Part shown: positions 1,203 to 30,098 of the stretch, piece by piece
Layout: the number at the start of each line of letters is the position of its first letter
Numbering within the stretch: the first letter of the stretch is position 1
From: Prevotella sp.
GTDB taxonomy: Bacteria; Bacteroidota; Bacteroidia; Bacteroidales; Bacteroidaceae
Assembly: GCA_017449675.1 (NCBI GenBank)
Contig: JAFTFG010000026.1
Span: 1-63,421 of the forward strand
Length of the DNA stretch: 63,421 nucleotides
Reading direction: 5' to 3'
The notes under the pieces: model-generated
Seen by the model: only the letters and a program-made list of their open reading frames with translations
Told to the model about the DNA's origin: nothing
The model's database searches: none
Program-made: the position numbers and the translations under genes

Positions 1203-4200
1203 TCAATCCTCTTCTGGAGGCAGTAAGGGACTGGCAGCAGTTAGCATCTGAGTGGACTGCTCGGAGATGGGGAATGATACGATCTGTGTCTCGTCAACCA
1301 GACCAAGGAATTTATTCAGATAATCTTTCAACTTATCAATAACCGTCTGTTTCTTCTCACCACTCTCTGGCAGAAAGGGATTAGAGGGAGGCATGATTTT
1401 CGCAATACCCGTACCCGTCTCTGTGACATAGCCGTCAGCGAAGGCACGTCGCATGAAAGCCTCCGTCTCTTGCGGTTTCAGATGCTCTTCCGCAATGATG
1501 GCATCCAGTTGCTGCCGCTTCTCCTGTTCCACATACCGCTCCCAGTCAGCATCCACATCCTTGTCTTTCTCTGGTGTCATGCGCTCGATGAACTTCTCTA
1601 TCAGTTCCCGCTTGTCACGCATGTCAGGACTTGCCTCTATCTGTTTTCTGATCTGGGTCACGATGGTCTTGTCCTTACAATTCGAGTCATGGTATTTCTG
1701 TACCAGACGAAGGATGTAATTGATATCTATCTGCACCTGCTTCACCAGTTCCATCTCAAAGACGATATCATCATTGATAAGTTCCTTCTCATCATGATGG
1801 GCGGGACGGAAGTCATCATGCAGTCGGTTATACCAGCCCAGATAGTCATCATAGCGCATCTGGTCGATGAGCATTTTCTCCTCCGTGAAGTCATCGAAGG
1901 CATTGAGGATATTCCGCAGTCTTAGTATCTCGCCCATCAGTCGGATAAACGCCTTCTTCTCCTCCTCATCGAAGATGTTGGGGATGTTCTCCACAGGATA
2001 CAGGGTGGTCAGTCTGTCGATGAGCGTCACATACGGCTCGTGCTGTCGTCCCTTCTCATCCTCGTAGCCTGTCTCGTAATACTCTTTGAACGACTTCATG
2101 AACACCAGTCCACTGGCGTTAGGGTCACCAAAGATGGCAAGGCTCTTGTTGGTGGCATCCTCCAGATTGCGGAAACAGATAATATTACCACAGTTCTTGA
2201 CAGCATTCAAGATACGGTTGGTGCGGCTGTATGCTTGCAGCAGTCCGTGCATTTTCAGGTTTTTGTCCACCCATAGCGTGTTCAGTGTCTTGGCATCGAA
2301 ACCAGTCAGGAACATACCCACCACGATCAGGATATCCAACTCCTTCCGTTTCATCTTCTGCGACACGTCCTTGTAGTAGTTCTGGAAACTGTCTCCCTCT
2401 GTCGAGTAGGTCGTGCCGAACATCTGGTTATAGTCGTTGATTGCCTTTTGCAGGGCATCCCTCGACTGCAAGTCCAGCCCTTCCGTGCTCTCTGGGTTCT
2501 CGCCCTCGCTGAAACCCCACTCGTCCTCCTCTTCCTCGTTGGCTGAGTAGGTGAAGATAGTGGCTATCCTCAGACGGGGAGCCCCGGGCTCTTGCAGTTG
2601 CTTTTTGAACTCATGATAATACTTGATGGCAGTCTTCACGCTATCCACGGCAAGGATGCTATTGAACTTATTCTGCTTGGTCTTCTCCGTGAAATGACTG
2701 ATGATATAGTTCGTCACGATACTGATGCGCTTGGGGTTATGCAGTGCCTCGTCCGTATCGATGCCCCACACCTGTTTACGCTCCACGTCGCTCTTCATCT
2801 TCATCGTACTCTCATAGTCGATGTGGAAGCGCAGCACGTTATTGTCACGGATGGCGTTGATAATGGTATAGGTATGCAGTGGCTGTGTGGGTTTCCCGTC
2901 CTTGTCGGGTTCTCCACCAAACAACTGGGCTGTAGTATGGTATTTGCCACCCTGATGGGCATTGACGGCAAAGATAGGAGTACCCGTGAATCCGAACATC
3001 AGGTATTTCTTGAAACGCTTGGCGATAAGTTGTCGCATGTCACCAAACTGACTTCTGTGGCACTCGTCGAAGATCAGCACGATATTCTCTTTCGTCACGA
3101 TGTCACGCAACTGCTCGTCATTATCGAAAATCTTTGGCTTCAGCAGGTTCGACAGTTTCTGTATCGTCGTGATGATGATGGTCGCCTGGTCGTCCTTCAT
3201 CTGCTTGCGCAGAATCTGTGCGGAGGTATTGGAGTTGGCGCAGTTCGGCTCGAAGTTGTCATACTCTCGCATCGTCTGATAGTCCAGGTCCTTACGGTCT
3301 ACGACGAAGAGCACCTTCTTCACACTCTCCATCCTCGATGCCAGTTGCGCTGTCTTAAACGAGGTCAGTGTCTTGCCTGAGCCTGTGGTGTGCCAGATGT
3401 AGCCACCTGCCCGTATCGTTCCCTGCCATTTGTTATAGATTGCCGTCTGTATGCGCTGTAGTATCTTCTCTGTCGCCGCTATCTGGTAAGGGCGCATCAC
3501 CAGCAACTGCTTGTCGACATTGAACACACAGTATTTCGTCAGGATATTCAGGATGGTGTGTTTGGCGAAGAATGTCGTGGTGAAGTCGCGGATATCCGTG
3601 AGCAGCGTGTTCTCCTGGTCTGTCCAGTACGACGTGAACTCGAATGTGTTACCGTCTGTCTTGTGTTTTCGCTGCTTCCTGCTCGTCTCTTCCTCTTTGG
3701 TGAAACGTGTCGTGTTCGAATAGTATTTCGTCTCTGTCCCGTTAGAGATCACAAAGATCTGTACGAAGTCGAACATTGCCCTACCTGCCCAGAAGGAGTC
3801 ACGCTGATAGCGGCTGATCTGGTTGAAGGCTTCCTTGATGCTCACACCCCGCTTTTTCAGTTCCACATGCACCATCGGCAGACCGTTCACCAAGATGGTC
3901 ACGTCATAGCGGTTCTTATAGGCTCCCTCCACCTTATATTGGTTGATGACCTGTAAGCGGTTGTTATAGATATTATGTTTATCCAGCAGTTTGATGTTCT
4001 TCGTCAGTCCGTTGTCCATGGTCAGGGCGAGGATATAGCCTTTGCCTTGAATCATCTCCGTCTTGTTCTGGATGGTCATCTGCTCGTTAGAGATCATAGG
4101 CAGCAGCCGTTCCCATTCCTTATTGCTTAGTTTTACCTCGTTCAGCGCCTCCAACTGTCGGCGCAGGTTATGTAGCAGACTCGTCTCGTCGTTCACATGG

Positions 4201-4358
4201 GCAGCATAGTCATACCCCTGACTGCGAAGTTGTCGGATGAAACTATCCTCCAGTTTCGCCTCACTCTGATGTCCGCCATCCGGCTTCGCCTCTACCTCGT
4301 AGTGCGCCATCACCGTCTGGTGCTCCTGTTCTATAATGATTTTATAGTCGTCTGTCAT
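1203..4358 (-). CDS. hsdR: Type I restriction enzyme, endonuclease/translocase subunit HsdR
   Basis: At 1051 residues this is the usual size for HsdR, the subunit that translocates DNA using ATP and cuts far from the recognition site. The N-terminal PD-(D/E)XK nuclease is visible as D152 followed by E166-L-K168 in HVELKKRG. The motor has Walker A GSGKT at 326-330, the DECH box at 431-434, motif III GFTGTP near 457, and a C-terminal RecA lobe with LTGFDAKTLNTLW and QAYSRTNR. A helical tail follows from about residue 870. All motor and nuclease residues I can check are intact. It is the last gene of the hsd operon, separated from hsdS by the four-helix-bundle gene and its 10-bp arrays. Confidence 0.96.
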   Translation of the reverse strand: MTDDYKIIIEQEHQTVMAHYEVEAKPDGGHQSEAKLEDSFIRQLRSQGYDYAAHVNDETSLLHNLRRQLEALNEVKLSNKEWERLLPMISNEQMTIQNKTEMIQGKGYILALTMDNGLTKNIKLLDKHNIYNNRLQVINQYKVEGAYKNRYDVTILVNGLPMVHVELKKRGVSIKEAFNQISRYQRDSFWAGRAMFDFVQIFVISNGTETKYYSNTTRFTKEEETSRKQRKHKTDGNTFEFTSYWTDQENTLLTDIRDFTTTFFAKHTILNILTKYCVFNVDKQLLVMRPYQIAATEKILQRIQTAIYNKWQGTIRAGGYIWHTTGSGKTLTSFKTAQLASRMESVKKVLFVVDRKDLDYQTMREYDNFEPNCANSNTSAQILRKQMKDDQATIIITTIQKLSNLLKPKIFDNDEQLRDIVTKENIVLIFDECHRSQFGDMRQLIAKRFKKYLMFGFTGTPIFAVNAHQGGKYHTTAQLFGGEPDKDGKPTQPLHTYTIINAIRDNNVLRFHIDYESTMKMKSDVERKQVWGIDTDEALHNPKRISIVTNYIISHFTEKTKQNKFNSILAVDSVKTAIKYYHEFKKQLQEPGAPRLRIATIFTYSANEEEEDEWGFSEGENPESTEGLDLQSRDALQKAINDYNQMFGTTYSTEGDSFQNYYKDVSQKMKRKELDILIVVGMFLTGFDAKTLNTLWVDKNLKMHGLLQAYSRTNRILNAVKNCGNIICFRNLEDATNKSLAIFGDPNASGLVFMKSFKEYYETGYEDEKGRQHEPYVTLIDRLTTLYPVENIPNIFDEEEKKAFIRLMGEILRLRNILNAFDDFTEEKMLIDQMRYDDYLGWYNRLHDDFRPAHHDEKELINDDIVFEMELVKQVQIDINYILRLVQKYHDSNCKDKTIVTQIRKQIEASPDMRDKRELIEKFIERMTPEKDKDVDADWERYVEQEKRQQLDAIIAEEHLKPQETEAFMRRAFADGYVTETGTGIAKIMPPSNPFLPESGEKKQTVIDKLKDYLNKFLGLVDETQIVSFPISEQSTQMLTAASPLLPPEED

Positions 4359-4390: not shown

Positions 4391-4440
4391 GTCCTAGGTC
4401 TTCCTAGGATCTCCTAGGATTACCTAGGACCTCCTAGGCT
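4391..4440. repeat. 10-bp period CCTAGG array, downstream side of the four-helix-bundle gene
   Basis: CCTAGG occurs five times at exactly 10-bp steps, starting at 4393, 4403, 4413, 4423 and 4433, with pyrimidine-rich spacers. The last two units encode the C-terminal residues of the four-helix-bundle protein and its stop codon lies inside the array. The array matches the one at 5105-5195 in period, core and orientation. Confidence 0.9.
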
Positions 4441-5091
4441 CTTTAACTCCGCCTCCAGTTCGGCTATCCGCTTCTTCAGAGCGGCATTCTCGGCTTCGAG
4501 GGCTTTCAGTTTGGCATCCTGTTCTTGTCGATAGCCAGTACGGGCTGCGTACATTCGCTCTTTGATACCGCCCTCTGTGACGAAGCGTTCTTCTAATTGC
4601 TTTATATAGCCGCACATCATCTTGTCTGTCTGGTGGCAGAGTGTTAGCATCAGGTTAGCAAATTCCTCATCGTTCATCTTTGAGGCGTATGGTGCGTAGT
4701 CGCCGTAATCGTTGTGTGAACGGCAGAAAGAACGTAGTTTCTGTTGACGGGGACTATCCTTTTCCCATATATTCAGGTGGTGGGTATTGATATAGTCCTC
4801 ATAGTCGGCACGCAACTCCTGAAGACTGCCTCGGGCAACATTCAACAGTTTGATTTCCATCTCGGAACTCGTCTGTCCGTCCTCACTGCCTTCCACGATA
4901 TTCTGTTTACCTGAGCGTGCTGCCTGCACCATCTGGTCAACGGTGCGGTCGCCATAAGGAGGGAGAAAGCGTTGACAGAACTCTACTGTCAACTGGTAGA
5001 TGACATCGCTCTTGCGATAGAAATAGAGGTTTTTCCATACTACCGCTTTCTTCAGCACCTTATATTGTTTCTTGTCGTCCTTTGTCATCAT
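4420..5091 (-). CDS. Four-helix-bundle (23S rRNA intervening-sequence type) protein with coiled-coil suffix
   Basis: The 223-residue product has the signature AARSGKQNIVEGS at residues 57-69, the hallmark of the four-helix-bundle family first known from proteins encoded in 23S rRNA intervening sequences and from Avd of diversity-generating retroelements. A second helical part spans about 110-175. A strongly heptad-patterned coiled coil (LEAENAALKKRIAELEAEL, about 198-216) follows. Family members are basic and can bind nucleic acid; the job of this suffix subgroup is not known to me. It sits between hsdS and hsdR, where no extra gene is normally needed, and both gene ends run into 10-bp CCTAG arrays. 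This looks like an inserted cassette rather than a restriction subunit, though it could be an accessory factor. Confidence 0.85.
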   Translation of the reverse strand: MMTKDDKKQYKVLKKAVVWKNLYFYRKSDVIYQLTVEFCQRFLPPYGDRTVDQMVQAARSGKQNIVEGSEDGQTSSEMEIKLLNVARGSLQELRADYEDYINTHHLNIWEKDSPRQQKLRSFCRSHNDYGDYAPYASKMNDEEFANLMLTLCHQTDKMMCGYIKQLEERFVTEGGIKERMYAARTGYRQEQDAKLKALEAENAALKKRIAELEAELKSLGGPR

Positions 5092-5104
5092 CTTTTAGTT
5101 TTAA

Positions 5105-5195
5105 ATTTCCTAGATTTTCCTAGTTCTTCCTAGGATTTCCTAGTCCTTCCTAGATTCTCCTAGGTCCTCCTAGATTCTCCTAAGTCCTCCCTAGA
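5105..5195. repeat. 10-bp period CCTAG array, between hsdS and the four-helix-bundle gene
   Basis: CCTAG starts at 5109, 5119, 5129, 5139, 5149, 5159 and 5169, with a variant CCTAA at 5179 and a last copy one base out of phase at 5190. Each 10-bp unit is YYTCCTAGNN. The array enters hsdS, encodes its final dozen residues, and supplies its TAG stop at 5160-5162. It ends about 15 bases before the start of the four-helix-bundle gene. Confidence 0.92.
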
Positions 5196-6320
5196 ATCAA
5201 AAGTCAATAGTTTATTCCGATAATACTCATATTGCTTCTCACGCTCCTTCAATTGCGCTTCCAAGTTCTGGATAGATGCCTCGAAAGTATCAAGGATAGA
5301 GACGATGCGGGATTGCTCGGAGAGGGAGGGGACGGGGATTAAGGTACGCCCCAACTCTTTAGCAGAGATAGAGCATATCTTACCATCAACAACTCCCATT
5401 CTTATTTGTTGATGATAATTATTTGAGCGCATAAAATACGAGAGATACTTAGCATTCATATTATGCTCAAAAATATAACAAGCATCATGTACTACAACGT
5501 TTTCTTTACCTAGCCAAGCAACACCGACCCCAATGTCAATATCATTTTCACCAGCACCGACAATTATAACATCACCGTATTTTGCAAAGCGTAATTTTTC
5601 CGATTTCTCTTTCGTCAAATAAGTTGGCGTTTTTTCTGTCCATACACCATAATACGTGTACATATCTCCATAATGAATACATGGGATACCATCTGAAACA
5701 ATGTCTGTCCTAACAAAACGCCTACCTCTTGTAAAAGAACCTACATCATCTAATGTTTTAACTTGAATTAGTCCTCTATTTAAAGCATTAATTAATTCCA
5801 ATTTACTTGAAAAATAGGCTTTATCCAAATACCACTCATACTGCTTACGACGTTGAGCGATTTGCTCTTTCAGGTTCTCTATCGCAGCCGTGAACGTATC
5901 GAGTATCCCCACTATCCGTGTTTGTTCGGAAAGGGAGGGAATGGGGACTACAAAATCAAACAACATAGGCTTTCGAATAGACGCTGCTGTTGACTTATAT
6001 GATTTTTGGTTTATATATTTTCCAAAATTCTCATATAAATAATAATATAAAAATCTTCCTTTCGTTTCGATTGATATAGGATGTACCCTATAGGTTCTTT
6101 GATGTAAGCCATATTTACCTTTCACATAATGAAATATTTCTCCAATACCACCTTCACCTGGTATAAGGATTGCTTCTTCATCATATAAATAAGAATCGAT
6201 TTTCAAAACTTCTTTAGATCTAACATAGAATGGGTAAAGACCATCCTCACTGGCGTCTTCTCTATTATTTGAACCAGTTCCAATCTCGCAAACCTCTCCT
6301 AATTTCTTCCACTCCACCAT
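5160..6320 (-). CDS. hsdS: Type I restriction specificity subunit HsdS
   Basis: HsdS chooses the bipartite DNA target for methylation and cleavage. The 386 residues form two target-recognition domains (about 1-125 and 195-335), each followed by a conserved helical spacer. The two spacers are repeats of each other: PSLSEQTRIVGILDTF near residue 128 and PSLSEQSRIVSILDTF near 338, both leading into a coiled stretch. Such repeats are where domain swapping by recombination happens in other Bacteroidales, which fits the nearby recombinase. The C-terminus (FDSREDLGESRRT) is encoded by the 10-bp CCTAG array, so repeat-number change would alter or extend the tail. The start is one base after the stop of the upstream nuclease gene. 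Confidence 0.95.
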   Translation of the reverse strand: MVEWKKLGEVCEIGTGSNNREDASEDGLYPFYVRSKEVLKIDSYLYDEEAILIPGEGGIGEIFHYVKGKYGLHQRTYRVHPISIETKGRFLYYYLYENFGKYINQKSYKSTAASIRKPMLFDFVVPIPSLSEQTRIVGILDTFTAAIENLKEQIAQRRKQYEWYLDKAYFSSKLELINALNRGLIQVKTLDDVGSFTRGRRFVRTDIVSDGIPCIHYGDMYTYYGVWTEKTPTYLTKEKSEKLRFAKYGDVIIVGAGENDIDIGVGVAWLGKENVVVHDACYIFEHNMNAKYLSYFMRSNNYHQQIRMGVVDGKICSISAKELGRTLIPVPSLSEQSRIVSILDTFEASIQNLEAQLKEREKQYEYYRNKLLTFDSREDLGESRRT

Positions 6321-6321
6321 A

Positions 6322-7374
6322 CTACTCGTCCTCCTTATGTTGCAGTCGGAAGAATTCCTTCTGCTGTTCTATCTCGTGACGTAGTTCCTCCTCGGTTGGC
6401 ATATACGTCATATATTTGGCAGCAAAAAGTTGGTCGCTTTCGTTCAGCACAGAGTAGCGGGCAATCGTATTGTCGGTATCCGTACAAAGCAAGACACCTA
6501 TAGTAGGCTGGTCGTCATCACCTTTTACAAGATCATCATACATACGGACGTACATATCCAGTTGACCTATATCCTGGTGGGTAAGGCGATGCGTCTTCAA
6601 CTCAAAAATGACAAAGCGTTTCATCTTGAAATTGTAAAATACCAGGTCTATGTAGAAGTCGGAGGTCTGTGTCACAATATGCTGTTGGCGTTCTACGAAA
6701 GCAAAACCGCGCCCCAATTCCAAGATGAATTTTTCAAGGTTGTCTATCAAGGCTTGCTCTAATTCTGACTCGGAATAAGCGGAATTACGACGAAATCCCA
6801 TAAACTCAGCCACCACGGGATTCTTGATATATTCCAGTGGGCTTTTATCTGTCGTGGGGTGAAGGTCTTCCGCATTGGCTGGAAGTTGAGCGGCTAAACG
6901 ACGTTCAAAGTATTGGGACGAGATGTTTCGGTCAAGTTCTCGTACACTCCACATACCTTTTGAGGCATTCTCTAAATACCACCATCTGGCTTCTGGACTT
7001 GTGACCGACAGAACACGACGCACATGAGACCATTCAAGATTGTGAACACACGTGTTCACTTTTTCTGCTTCCGGAAAAAGCAGGTAGAACTTTTTGTAAT
7101 AGTCAAGATTCCGTTTGCTATAACTCCTGCCATAAATGGGAATCAGGCCATCAGCGAGATTTTTCATAAGTTTCGTGCCGTAAGATGCTCTCCGCTGTCC
7201 ACCTTGTTCTTCTTCTACGATGCGCCTACCAACATTCCAATATGTGAAAATGGCTATCTGTCCTACGTTTGCATAGGCCTGCTGGCGACCCTGTTCAATG
7301 ATAGAACAGACATCTTGAAACAGCACCTTCTCTTGCTGTTCCACCTTTATTGCTATATTTTTGTTCTCTTCCAT
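6322..7374 (-). CDS. DUF1016/YhcG-type PD-(D/E)XK nuclease domain protein
   Basis: The 350-residue protein has the DUF1016 N-terminal half (W-N-V-G-R-R-I at about 46-52, YGTKLMKNLADGL, then the NLDYYKKFY region) and a C-terminal nuclease fold with the expected D...ExK arrangement in IDLVFYN...FVIFELKTH. Relatives are common beside type I restriction loci and in defence islands; I know of no settled biochemical role. It lies between hsdM and hsdS with gaps of three bases and one base, so it is surely co-expressed. It may be an extra nuclease, a stabilising subunit, or a separate defence gene riding in the operon. Confidence 0.9.
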   Translation of the reverse strand: MEENKNIAIKVEQQEKVLFQDVCSIIEQGRQQAYANVGQIAIFTYWNVGRRIVEEEQGGQRRASYGTKLMKNLADGLIPIYGRSYSKRNLDYYKKFYLLFPEAEKVNTCVHNLEWSHVRRVLSVTSPEARWWYLENASKGMWSVRELDRNISSQYFERRLAAQLPANAEDLHPTTDKSPLEYIKNPVVAEFMGFRRNSAYSESELEQALIDNLEKFILELGRGFAFVERQQHIVTQTSDFYIDLVFYNFKMKRFVIFELKTHRLTHQDIGQLDMYVRMYDDLVKGDDDQPTIGVLLCTDTDNTIARYSVLNESDQLFAAKYMTYMPTEEELRHEIEQQKEFFRLQHKEDE

Positions 7375-7377
7375 CGT

Positions 7378-8937
7378 TTACTCTCCCAACTCCTTAATAA
7401 TCGCCTCTATCTTCTGATTCAGTTCGTTGCCCTCAGCGATGAGGGTTTCAAGTTTGGCATTGACAGCCGTGATGTCAATCACCTCACGGGTATCTTCCTG
7501 CTCCACATAACTGCTGACAGAGAGGTTGCAATCGTTCTCCAGAATATCATCGTTCTTCACCAGTTTGGCAAGATATTGCTCGTCATGGCGGTTCTGGTAT
7601 AGTTTCATGATCTTGTCCTGATGCTCTGGCAGGAGGATGTTCTTATTACCATTCTTCTGGAAGAGTTTGCTGGCATCTATGAAGAGGACACTGCTGTCTC
7701 GCTTGGCACTCTTTTTCAAGACGATGATACAGGTGGCGATGCCTACCCCAAAGAACAGGTTGGCAGGCAACTGGATAACGGTATCCACGAAGTTGTTACG
7801 AATCAGATACTGACGGATGCGCTTCTCGTCACCACCACGATAGAGTACCCCTGGGAACTCTACGATGGCAGCAGTACCCTGCTCGGAGAGATGCCACAGC
7901 ATGTGCATCGTGAAAGCAAGGTCGGCAGCACTCTTAGGAGCCAGCACACCTGCAGGAGCATAACGCTCGTCGTTGATGAGGATGGTGTTATCCTTACCCT
8001 CCCACTTCAACGAATAAGGGGGATTCGAGACGATTGCATCAAAGGGCGCGTCCTGCATGTGCTGGGGCTTCAGCAGCGTGTCCTCCAGACGGATATCGAA
8101 GTTGTCGTAGTTCACATTATGCAGGAACATATTGATGCGACAGAGATTGTAGGTCGTGGGGTTCACCTCCTGTCCGAAGTATTTCAGGTTAGGGTTCTCC
8201 TTGCCGATAGTCTTGGCAAACTTCAAGAGCAGGGAGCCACTGCCACAGGCAGGGTCGTAGACCTTCTGGATATTCGGATTCTGATAGGCGGCAATACGTG
8301 CCAATAGTTCGGATACCTGCTGAGGGGTGAAGAACTCGCCCCCACTCTTACCAGCCTCCGAGGCATACATCTGCATCAGAAACTCATAGGTGTCGCCAAA
8401 CGTGTCATTGTCTGTATCGTTGTATTTAGAGCCAAGATTCATATCTGCCACTGTACGTAGCACTTTTGTCAGCAACTGATTGCGCTTGATGACAGTAGAG
8501 CCCAAAGCCTGACTATCAACAGCAAAGTCACTGAAGAGACCTCGCAAATCATCCTCCGACTCAGTACCCTGCGCAGAAGCCTCGATGGCACGGAACACAG
8601 CAGTCAGATGCTCGTTCAGGTTCTCGTCCTTATCAGCAGTCTTCACTACGTTCTCAAACAGTTGTGAGGGCAGGATGAAGTATCCTTTCTCCTCCACCAT
8701 CTTCTTACGGATATTCTCTGCCATCGTGTCATCAATAGCAGCATAGTTGAAGTCGGGCTGTCCAGCCTCCTCCATCAGTTGGTGGATATAGTCACAGATA
8801 TTCTCTGAGATAAAGCGGTAGAAGATTGAGCCCAGCACGTATGCCTTGAACTCCCAGCCATCGACACTGCCACGCAGTTCGTTAGCGATCTTCCATATCG
8901 TCTTGTGCAGTTCCGCACGCTCCGTTTGGTTTGCCAT
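7378..8937 (-). CDS. hsdM: Type I restriction DNA adenine methyltransferase subunit HsdM
   Basis: This N6-adenine methyltransferase subunit pairs with HsdS to protect host sites. The 519-residue protein opens with the helical HsdM N-terminal domain (ELHKTIWKIANELRG...). The S-adenosylmethionine motif DPACGSGSLLLKF and the catalytic NPPY (SNPPYSLKW) follow in the usual order, and a C-terminal helical tail completes it. It is the first gene of the operon and has its own promoter directly upstream. Length and motifs are complete. Confidence 0.97.
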   Translation of the reverse strand: MANQTERAELHKTIWKIANELRGSVDGWEFKAYVLGSIFYRFISENICDYIHQLMEEAGQPDFNYAAIDDTMAENIRKKMVEEKGYFILPSQLFENVVKTADKDENLNEHLTAVFRAIEASAQGTESEDDLRGLFSDFAVDSQALGSTVIKRNQLLTKVLRTVADMNLGSKYNDTDNDTFGDTYEFLMQMYASEAGKSGGEFFTPQQVSELLARIAAYQNPNIQKVYDPACGSGSLLLKFAKTIGKENPNLKYFGQEVNPTTYNLCRINMFLHNVNYDNFDIRLEDTLLKPQHMQDAPFDAIVSNPPYSLKWEGKDNTILINDERYAPAGVLAPKSAADLAFTMHMLWHLSEQGTAAIVEFPGVLYRGGDEKRIRQYLIRNNFVDTVIQLPANLFFGVGIATCIIVLKKSAKRDSSVLFIDASKLFQKNGNKNILLPEHQDKIMKLYQNRHDEQYLAKLVKNDDILENDCNLSVSSYVEQEDTREVIDITAVNAKLETLIAEGNELNQKIEAIIKELGE

Positions 8938-28288: not shown

Positions 28289-30098
28289 TCATCTGACAAT
28301 TCTTACAATCAAACTCCAAACGGAAACGTCTTCCATCACCCATACGAAGGAAAAGAGGTTCCTTCCATTGTGGTTTCCTGCCTCCATGACGTACACACAT
28401 ACCAAGGGAGTAGCGCAGACAATGACGGCACTGCATCAACAGCCCTTCTTTCTCTGGCTCCAATTCATAGGCAGATGCCATATCATGCAACCCTTGATCC
28501 TGATAGAAAGCACGAGCAAGACGGTTGGAAATATTATATAGATAAGGAAGGCGGTACCTTCGGCCCTCGAAGGCGGCACCTTCGACCCTCGAAGGCGGCA
28601 CCTTCGACCCTCGGAGGCGGCACCTTCGACCCTCGGAGGCGGCACCTTCTAAAAAGCGATGCCTTAACTCCGCCAACAGACTGCTTGGAATGAAGTAGTT
28701 GAAGCCTTCCGGCAACTCCACTCTACTACACGCATAGGGGGTACCTCCCAGTCGTGACAACTGACGGACGATATTCTCACGCTGTGGCTTCTCAGCCTGC
28801 TGATGCTCACAGGAGATACTTACCTCTATATCCATATCACTCACGGACAGTGCGAAGCCATCGGCAGTAGCCTCCAAACGCATCACCAATGGAATCTTAC
28901 GCTCACTGCTCTTATGCGACAGGATACGCTCGAACTCCTGGTCGTTGTTCCGATAGAGTGCCATCCCCGCACGCAGATTTCGCGGCATCTCATGCGGATA
29001 GAGCCGATTACCCTCCGCACGGTTCACACGGAAACCTTCTAACTCACGGTTCTGATTGATAAAACAGAGTCCGTCACCATTAGCAAAGGATGCCGTTCCT
29101 GCCACATTGAAAGAGTCACGGCGTGTTTCCTTGACATAACCCACATACTCCCCCATCGCTTTAGGTGTATCCGGTGAGCAAATATCCGGTTGACGCCCAT
29201 GCAGAAAGTATGTCGTAAACCCACGGTTGAAAGTCTTGTTCAAATTGGGCGTAAACGTATAGGCGCAATGTCCCAATGAAGCCCTACAATATTGATTAGG
29301 ATATCGGTCTATCAAGGCATCCAAACGTTGACGATAAGCACTTACTACATTCTTCACATAGTTGATATCTTTCAGTCGACCTTCTATTTTGAAAGAGGTT
29401 GCGCCTGCACGTACCAGTTCCTCCAGGTGGTCACTCTGATTCAGGTCCTTCAAAGACAGCAGATACCGTTGGTGCTCCAGTTCCTGACCATCGGCATCCA
29501 CCAAATCAAATCTCATGCGACAGAATTGAGCACATGCCCCACGATTGGCAGAACGTCCAAAACAATACTGGGACGCATAACATAATCCGCTATAACTAAC
29601 ACAAAGAGCACCATGCACGAAAACCTCCAGAGCCATATCCGGTACCTCTTGATGAATCTTCGTAATCTCCTCGACAGACAACTCCCGGGCAAGAACCGCA
29701 CGTTGGAAACCGACATGCTGCAGCCAACGTACTTTTTCTACAGTCCGATTGTCCGTCTGTGTAGAGGCATGTAATGCAATAGGAGGCAGTTCCATGGTAA
29801 GAATTGCCATATCCTGTACCAGAATAGCGTCTACCCCAATCTCATAAAGTTGGCAGATCAGTTGCCTCGTTGCCTCCAGTTCATGGTCATAAAGAATGGT
29901 GTTCACCGTGACATACACTTTCACCCCATACGGGTGTGCATAGTCACATAGTTGACGGATATCTTCCACACTGTTTCCCGCAGCCGCCCTTGCACCAAAA
30001 CGCTGCGCCCCTATATAGACAGCATCAGCGCCATGGTCAACCGCTGCCATTCCACAGGCAAGGTCTTTGGCGGGTGCAAGCAGTTCCAGCGGTGTCAT
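28269..30098 (-). CDS. U32 peptidase-family protein (RlhA-like) with a repeat-derived insertion
   Basis: The 609-residue protein starts with the U32 hallmark LLAPAKDLACGMAAVDHGADAVY. It carries the cysteine motif region YSGLCYASQYCFGRSANRGACAQFC and a C-terminal collagenase-associated region with more cysteines (CRHCLRYSLGMC). Relatives such as RlhA hydroxylate C2501 of 23S rRNA using a prephenate pathway and iron-sulphur chemistry; that role is likely but not proven here. Residues about 483-517 (EGAASEGRRCRLRGSKVPPS and onward) are encoded by an in-frame 22-bp tandem repeat and look foreign to the fold. The ATG overlaps the metA stop by four bases. Confidence 0.85.
   Translation of the reverse strand: MTPLELLAPAKDLACGMAAVDHGADAVYIGAQRFGARAAAGNSVEDIRQLCDYAHPYGVKVYVTVNTILYDHELEATRQLICQLYEIGVDAILVQDMAILTMELPPIALHASTQTDNRTVEKVRWLQHVGFQRAVLARELSVEEITKIHQEVPDMALEVFVHGALCVSYSGLCYASQYCFGRSANRGACAQFCRMRFDLVDADGQELEHQRYLLSLKDLNQSDHLEELVRAGATSFKIEGRLKDINYVKNVVSAYRQRLDALIDRYPNQYCRASLGHCAYTFTPNLNKTFNRGFTTYFLHGRQPDICSPDTPKAMGEYVGYVKETRRDSFNVAGTASFANGDGLCFINQNRELEGFRVNRAEGNRLYPHEMPRNLRAGMALYRNNDQEFERILSHKSSERKIPLVMRLEATADGFALSVSDMDIEVSISCEHQQAEKPQRENIVRQLSRLGGTPYACSRVELPEGFNYFIPSSLLAELRHRFLEGAASEGRRCRLRGSKVPPSRVEGAAFEGRRYRLPYLYNISNRLARAFYQDQGLHDMASAYELEPEKEGLLMQCRHCLRYSLGMCVRHGGRKPQWKEPLFLRMGDGRRFRLEFDCKNCQMNVYATD
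28548..28649. repeat. 22-bp tandem repeat inside the U32 gene, about 4.6 units
   Basis: Units of 22 bp start at 28548, 28570, 28592, 28614 and 28636 (last one 14 bases). The plus-strand consensus is RAGGCGGCACCTTCGACCCT plus CG, with GAAGGTGCCGCC-type dyads. Because 22 is not a multiple of three, the frame rotates and the protein repeats every 22 residues (three units) without a stop. Only single-base differences separate units, so the array is recent. Confidence 0.95.

Follow-up and report, generated by a model that had tools for sequence, protein, structure and literature searches.

Short-period CCTAG arrays around a four-helix-bundle gene in a Prevotella hsd operon suggest a probable, little-known type of insertion element

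Between the hsdS and hsdR genes of a type I restriction operon in Prevotella sp. lies a single small gene that stands between two arrays of a CCTAG-containing repeat, which raises the question of what such a gene has to do with its arrays and with the restriction system around it. The window, by which we mean the whole stretch of 63,421 nucleotides that was analyzed, carries the locus on its minus strand, outside any rRNA gene, in the order hsdM, YhcG/DUF1016, hsdS, array, four-helix-bundle (4HB) gene, array, hsdR. The features are as follows.

1203 to 4358, minus strand: hsdR, the downstream neighbor of the 4HB unit.
4392 to 4443, no strand: array on the downstream side of the 4HB gene, five CCTAGG cores in 10-bp steps (4393-4438), which writes the C terminus and the stop codon of the 4HB protein.
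4420 to 5091, minus strand: 4HB suffix-domain protein of 223 aa (TIGR04258 and TIGR02436), with a coiled-coil-like C-terminal stretch.
5105 to 5194, no strand: array on the upstream side of the 4HB gene, seven exact CCTAG cores plus degenerate units, reaching into the 3' end of hsdS.
5160 to 6320, minus strand: hsdS, type I specificity subunit, whose final codons and stop come from the array.
6322 to 7374, minus strand: YhcG/DUF1016 nuclease-family protein, within the hsd operon.
7378 to 8937, minus strand: hsdM.

The array cores described in the first-pass annotation were re-located exactly, namely, five CCTAGG at 4393, 4403, 4413, 4423, and 4433 and seven CCTAG at 5109, 5119, 5129, 5139, 5149, 5159, and 5169, all at exact 10-bp steps and the latter followed by degenerate units to 5194. 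Exact CCTAG triples at 10-bp spacing number eight in the window versus none in 100 first-order Markov windows, and CTAG is scarce in the window outside the arrays (27 seen, whereas base composition predicts 244 and a Markov estimate 84). As that annotation had it, the arrays enter the coding ends of both hsdS and the 4HB gene, whose stop codons (5160 and 4420, respectively) lie within them. Its family assignment and its hsdS/hsdR setting were likewise recovered, since the protein passes TIGR04258 (77.3 bits, cut-off 40) and TIGR02436 (35.9 bits, cut-off 24) and the gene order was found again; the score against PF05635 (30.1) is slightly under the cut-off (33.8). The 4HB gene is the sole gene between the two arrays, and its product has no catalytic family match. 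A profile search of solved structures with the suffix protein gave weak matches only, the top one being the S23-like 2gsc (E 0.011). No phage match was found for the suffix protein, and one plasmid record carried it. A CRISPR-like array was rejected, since the period here is 10 bp, unlike the combination of spacers of tens of bases with cas genes, and no cas match occurred among five scanned locus proteins.

To what extent do arrays and gene belong together beyond this locus? TIGR04258 genes from 61 of 149 relatives' genomes and from the best 80 of 552 confirmed GTDB loci yielded 186 distinct suffix genes, of which the analysis covered 163 of the main type and 14 of the zinc-ribbon type, leaving aside 9 fragments or odd fusions; the redundancy filter removed identical protein interiors only, and close relatives stay in the set. 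By a fixed score, an array with a period of 7 to 11 bp stood on at least one side of 122 of the 155 suffix genes with both flanks readable and on both sides of 38, compared with 2.4% of random windows taken from these loci (53 of 2173), so that the proposal of arrays and gene as one unit extends to the family. Homologs lacking arrays, which the first-pass annotation had named as an argument against this proposal, do exist, as 33 of the 155 genes show no clear array at that threshold. Counted by side, array flanks occur upstream in 74 of 157 and downstream in 85 of 161 suffix genes, versus 48 of 584 and 72 of 586 for other genes of the same loci, i.e., 8 to 12%. In loci that were long enough, array groups of the CTAG, CTATAG, and CCGG kinds numbered 57 in the 1-kb bin preceding the gene and 22 in the one following it, and every other kilobase bin contained at most 6.

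The repeat words vary from gene to gene (CCTAGG, TCTAGA, ACTAGT, CTATAG, TCCGGA, and ATAAG- and TGGGAG-type words), and zinc-ribbon-type genes have 8-bp TCGATATA or ATAACG words. A second suffix gene in the window's own genome (L012 720-2035, C6:27166), the end of which resembles a four-cysteine zinc ribbon, has similar 32-, 17-, and 8-bp tandem repeats on either side. The earlier suggestion that the 10-bp period serves cooperative binding by placing every core on the same face of the helix fails, because periods of 7, 8, and 9 bp also occur in related elements, and we rejected it as the cause of the 10 bp. Word and period mostly agree between the two sides of a gene and go with the protein: among suffix genes with arrays called on both sides, the period was the same on the two sides in 34 of 38, and the word class agreed in 35 of 44 suffix genes. 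On a protein tree of a quick, single-matrix kind, the word class changed 33 times, versus a minimum of 69 and a mean of 75 in 200 shuffles, and the period changed 16 times, versus a shuffled minimum of 33. These few changes bear out the pairing of array type with protein type, a pattern that would fit recognition of the word by the protein and that co-inheritance of gene and arrays would also give.

As for the structure of the unit, a 6-bp palindrome was present in 86 of 179 arrays versus 24.3 expected from letter shuffling, 59 of 62 arrays kept the CTAG core better than the spacer, and only 11.9% of spacer pairs within 9-bp CTAG arrays were identical. With the 95th percentile of permuted pairs as threshold, the two flanks of suffix genes match each other directly in 49 of 157 cases and in inverted orientation in 36 of 157; with palindromic cores, a direct match amounts to both.

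The hsdS-hsdR junction itself is not always occupied. The 4HB-array unit is found there in 2 of 13 hsdR-related loci, i.e., in the window and in a second genome (G001, L286) that carries a different word, 9-bp CTAG. In 3 of the 13 (L282, L283, and L284), the junction is directly closed, so that the empty hsd loci anticipated by the first-pass annotation were found at the level of gene order, and in at least 5 (L280, L281, L285, L287, and L289) it holds other sequence or genes; 10 of the 13 loci could be read. In the relatives, hsdS was recognized by eye from its C terminus, and the loci are divergent, which makes this a comparison of gene order. The hsdS-hsdR gap is a general accessory slot, of which the element is one occupant. 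A cassette private to hsd loci was rejected in view of the many other contexts: suffix genes lie near a tRNA-like gene (L041, by eye), beside a GuaA-like gene (L294, by eye), and, in P. nigrescens, between peptidase and methionine sulfoxide reductase genes, and ordinary 4HB genes, i.e., those without the suffix, are found with cas genes or ribonucleotide reductase genes on either side, or within conjugation operons.

Clean pairs of filled and empty sites come from this nonsuffix branch. Ordinary 4HB genes are widespread, with TIGR02436 in 114 of 148 Bacteroidota genomes. Among 70 ordinary loci drawn from the best matches, 7- to 8-bp arrays with a score of at least 20 stood upstream in 31 and downstream in 31, versus 2 of 28 and 8 of 25 for other genes at score 20, a small control with a high downstream background. 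Their flanks match mostly as inverted copies, with 37 of 70 loci exceeding the 95th percentile of permuted pairs, versus 10 for direct orientation. Plasmid records containing an ordinary 4HB gene numbered 40, of which 20 were taken. Of the 18 cyanobacterial ones with annotation, 9 had inverted flank matches that exceeded the 95th percentile of permutations, with GGGAGTA and GGGAACA among the heptamers, and 2 (L397 and L423) showed direct matches; no array was seen in the flanks of the gene in L407. A Nostoc plasmid conjugation operon exists in filled (L401 and L437) and empty (L431) forms and, in L432, with both inverted arrays and no annotated gene between them. In a second Nostoc operon, L433 and L434 are empty at two junctions, L406 and L436 are filled at one of them, and L428 is filled at the next. 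Both Pseudanabaena galeata and Anabaena sp. 90 have the element at the cas6-cas4 junction, and in Pseudanabaena ABRG5-3 this junction is without the gene, with a short degenerate repeat left. From these filled, empty, and gene-less sites, it follows that gene and arrays insert as a unit and that arrays occur without the gene.

One ordinary member ties the family to ribosomal RNA. The 4HB gene of Azospirillum lipoferum plasmid p2 (L426) lies inside large-subunit rRNA, RF02541 spans the whole locus, and the complementary ends are, by eye, inverted 7-bp arrays; this is a true 23S intervening sequence (IVS). When the energy of an RNA duplex between the two flanks was compared with permuted pairs, it fell under the 5th percentile for 20 of 70 ordinary 4HB genes and for 20 of 157 suffix genes, the latter a weak excess over the approximately 8 expected. 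In the window, the arrays can either pair with each other, calculated at -55.3 kcal/mol, or fold locally, at -27.7 and -30.1 kcal/mol. The analogy to an RNA stem in the suffix branch draws on palindromic cores and on weak duplex statistics, because the arrays of this branch are direct.

Arrays of the same words also occur far from the gene. Among the 149 relatives' genomes, exact 10-bp CCTAG triples were present in 15, four-unit 9-bp CTAG arrays in 48, with a near-empty backward control, and CTATAG triples in 19. Of 90 genomes of the genus Prevotella, 53 have a TIGR04258 gene and 37 lack it; at least one of the three array words was present in 39 of the former and also in 15 of the latter. We found 9-bp CTAG arrays in 12 genomes without a suffix gene, and a profile search of 25 gene-less genomes, including these 12, gave one weak match; arrays thus often stand without the gene. 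One of these genomes (G010) is 99% complete, has 9-bp CTAG arrays, and is without a detectable suffix gene. On its contig 3 (L292-L293, about 1599600-1631700), 24 of the 26 CTAG matches listed lie within ~22 kb, and the clustered arrays are set among what look like housekeeping genes. In another genome (G084), contig 2 (708 kb) carries all ten 9-bp CTAG matches together with the 4HB-suffix gene, and the copy of P. nigrescens lies on a 568-kb replicon.

At the genome level, dispersed arrays were compared with the word class at the gene. When at least five matches were required, such arrays were present in 14 of 17 versus 23 of 73 genomes for 9-bp CTAG (Fisher P = 0.0002), in 3 of 4 versus 8 of 86 for 10-bp CCTAG (P = 0.005), and in 3 of 5 versus 9 of 85 for CTATAG (P = 0.016), in tests that ignore species kinship; restricted to gene-bearing genomes, the corresponding P values were 0.008, 0.013, and 0.02. 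At the one-match level, the comparison is partly circular because the gene's own flanks are counted. The window's own genome (1.8 Mb, 54% complete) has 9- or 10-bp CTAG arrays at 18 places, 16 of them beyond the window's two. Mechanical calling of open reading frames (ORFs) places 7 of the 16 between genes and the other 9 in frame within ORFs, several of the latter with only three units. Best matches of protein pieces, N-terminal ones in the case of the operon genes, place arrays at murD-ftsW, rplL-rpoB, nrdD-nrdG, purC-ubiE, and MetH, and a further one lies in the rpsI-rpsB gap (genes named by eye). The first-pass annotation had held that arrays common far from such genes would speak against it; taken literally, they are common (16 places), yet their strong concentration at the gene stands. 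These distant arrays look like gene-less offspring of the element.

Two of these places could be compared among species. The rpsI-rpsB gap contains a conserved hairpin-like leader (by eye), the loop of which carries CTAG arrays in 5 of 29 species; the remaining ones show a short loop or different sequence there. The sample consisted of 30 loci, 29 of them parsed, from 81 genomes with a match. A scan of three loci for the hairpin returned no Rfam family at gathering score. By RpsB, the genome closest to that of the window (G035) has the loop array, and the next closest (G037) is without it. In MetH, 9 of 16 loci were parsed, and an in-frame CTAG array was present in the interdomain linker of 4 species and absent in 5; inserts of this kind stay in frame because the period is 9 bp. 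The rpsI-rpsB leader loop or its surroundings hold ACTATCC-like repeats and inverted CTCTCA/TGAGAG arrays in L306, L308, and L323. Given such differing short-period repeats, the loop looks like a landing site for repeats.

Taken together, these observations lead us to consider it likely that the unit in the hsd operon is a little-known S23/IVP-type, IVS-like insertion element, with the arrays as its ends and gene-less arrays as its offspring. Inserted between hsdS and hsdR, the element would consist of the 4HB gene with an array at either end, and the encoded protein most likely recognizes its own repeat word, here the palindromic CCTAGG, one per 10 bp. The protein would let the element, or the arrays alone, settle at new sites that tolerate insertion, such as gaps between operon genes, loops of structured RNAs, and protein linkers, and arrays without the gene would derive from it. 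In ordinary members, inverted arrays may let the transcript form a stem whose loop contains the gene. At the level of sequence, the comparisons demonstrate bracketing, matching of the arrays, covariation with the protein, insertion at tolerant places, and gene-less copies. We infer that the protein binds the array, and movement could proceed through RNA, as 23S rRNA intervening sequences suggest.

Could the arrays instead be operators? A global DNA- or RNA-binding regulator, with the dispersed arrays as its operators, the flanking arrays as autoregulatory sites, and no mobile element at all, would account for a core kept in 59 of 62 arrays while spacers vary and for arrays directly between key operon genes such as murD-ftsW, rplL-rpoB, nrdD-nrdG, purC-ubiE, and rpsI-rpsB. 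It sits poorly with the 9 of 16 further arrays of the window's own genome that lie within ORFs, an odd place for operators even if several have only three units, with the variable presence of arrays at the same site in related species, with the filled and empty sites of the gene itself, and with genomes that have arrays and no gene. We therefore regard a purely regulatory network as rather unlikely, and the insertion element as the better reading.

That the repeats arose passively, by replication slippage in tolerant gaps that the gene merely favors, appears very improbable. Slippage duplicates whole units, whereas here the spacers differ and the core is kept (11.9% identical spacer pairs in 9-bp CTAG arrays), and simple slippage was rejected on this ground of variable spacers and a constant core. 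Although arrays far from the gene and array-like flanks at 8 to 12% of the other genes in the same loci are what slippage might leave, it does not predict that word and period track the protein tree, that 122 of 155 genes carry arrays versus 2.4% per random window, or that the two flanks match in inverted orientation. Hardly credible to us is a role of the 4HB protein and its arrays as part of the type I system, for example, in HsdR expression or CTAG protection, which the position between hsdS and hsdR in both the window and G001 (L286) might suggest; the family also occurs elsewhere (the tRNA-like and GuaA-like neighborhoods and the P. nigrescens peptidase/methionine sulfoxide reductase site), and ordinary members occupy cas, conjugation, and ribonucleotide reductase gene settings. 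We thus retain the S23/IVP-type insertion element as our working hypothesis.

How would such an element compare with known systems? In REPIN/RAYT systems, a gene is flanked by a repeat whose copies disperse through the genome, and RAYT is a Y1 (HUH) transposase; the window differs in that only a 4HB protein without a catalytic family match stands between the repeats. The 4HB protein shares its superfamily with DGR Avd, to which PF05635 is related according to the accessible part of PMC10053308. The closest parallel is the 23S IVS with an S23/IVP ORF, which has a protein of the same 4HB superfamily (TIGR02436) and short arrays around the gene, the IVS ends of A. lipoferum p2 being inverted 7-bp arrays. 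Such sequences replace tetraloops (PMC4990558, in the part available), as CTAG arrays likewise stand in the rpsI-rpsB leader loop. The window unit differs from them in lying in an mRNA operon and in encoding a protein with a suffix domain plus a tail that resembles a coiled coil; in place of inverted heptamers, it has direct arrays of palindromic 10-bp units. The same part of PMC4990558 describes tandem GACAGAT heptamers ahead of the S23 start in the Coxiella IVS, excision of 23S intervening sequences by RNase III, and an older theory of the IVS as a mobile element whose frame serves mobility; its authors consider production of the S23 protein by Coxiella in vivo improbable and regard the RNA as more relevant.

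Dispersed short repeats offer a second parallel, since STRR heptamers, TAACTGA, and the Xanthomonas GGGAATC repeats, like CTAG, form short tandem arrays scattered between genes. STRR-type units are 7 bp long compared with 8 to 10 bp in the suffix branch, and the 10-bp unit of the window falls outside a 7-bp definition. In the portion of PMC4692102 at hand, GGGAATC forms paired inverted arrays of unknown role, the Xanthomonas heptamers are generally not associated with mobile elements, 83% of them stand in the same gene context in two species, and few GGGGA(C/T)T pairs of Nostoc PCC 7120 are inverted. The repeat-binding protein is described as unknown in the accessible text of PMC4679880, with S1, cold-shock, and CsrA proteins as candidates, and the sections available of this paper and of PMC4692102 name no 4HB partner for the STRR, TAACTGA, or GGGAATC repeats.

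It is tempting, if distinctly speculative, to suppose that the short tandem repeats scattered through bacterial genomes (cyanobacterial heptamers, TAACTGA, Xanthomonas GGGAATC, and Prevotella CTAG) derive, as ends and as gene-less offspring, from a single superfamily of minimal mobile elements, the links to TAACTGA and Xanthomonas being drawn by analogy. The sole protein of these elements would be an S23/Avd-like 4HB protein that recognizes its own word and spreads it without a transposase, perhaps via a host reverse transcriptase, and rRNA intervening sequences would be members residing in rRNA loops. The element may explain scattered short repeats, and the link between protein clade and repeat word makes both the role of S23/IVP and the origin of the repeats, which PMC4990558, PMC4692102, and PMC4679880 leave open in their accessible parts, directly testable. 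Insertion between cas genes is a reason that we offer for the listing of 4HB proteins among CRISPR-linked genes; the 23S rRNA IVP is named in a figure legend on such genes in PMC10910872, seen in part. Titles and beginnings of abstracts in an open-licence library gave no account of short arrays bracketing 4HB genes. Of note, the window also contains a 22-bp tandem repeat (GAAGGCGGCACCTTCGACCCTC) at 28547-28649, and a unit like it occurs at L012 620-690, beside the own genome's second 4HB-suffix gene, which hints at another dispersed repeat family in this genome.
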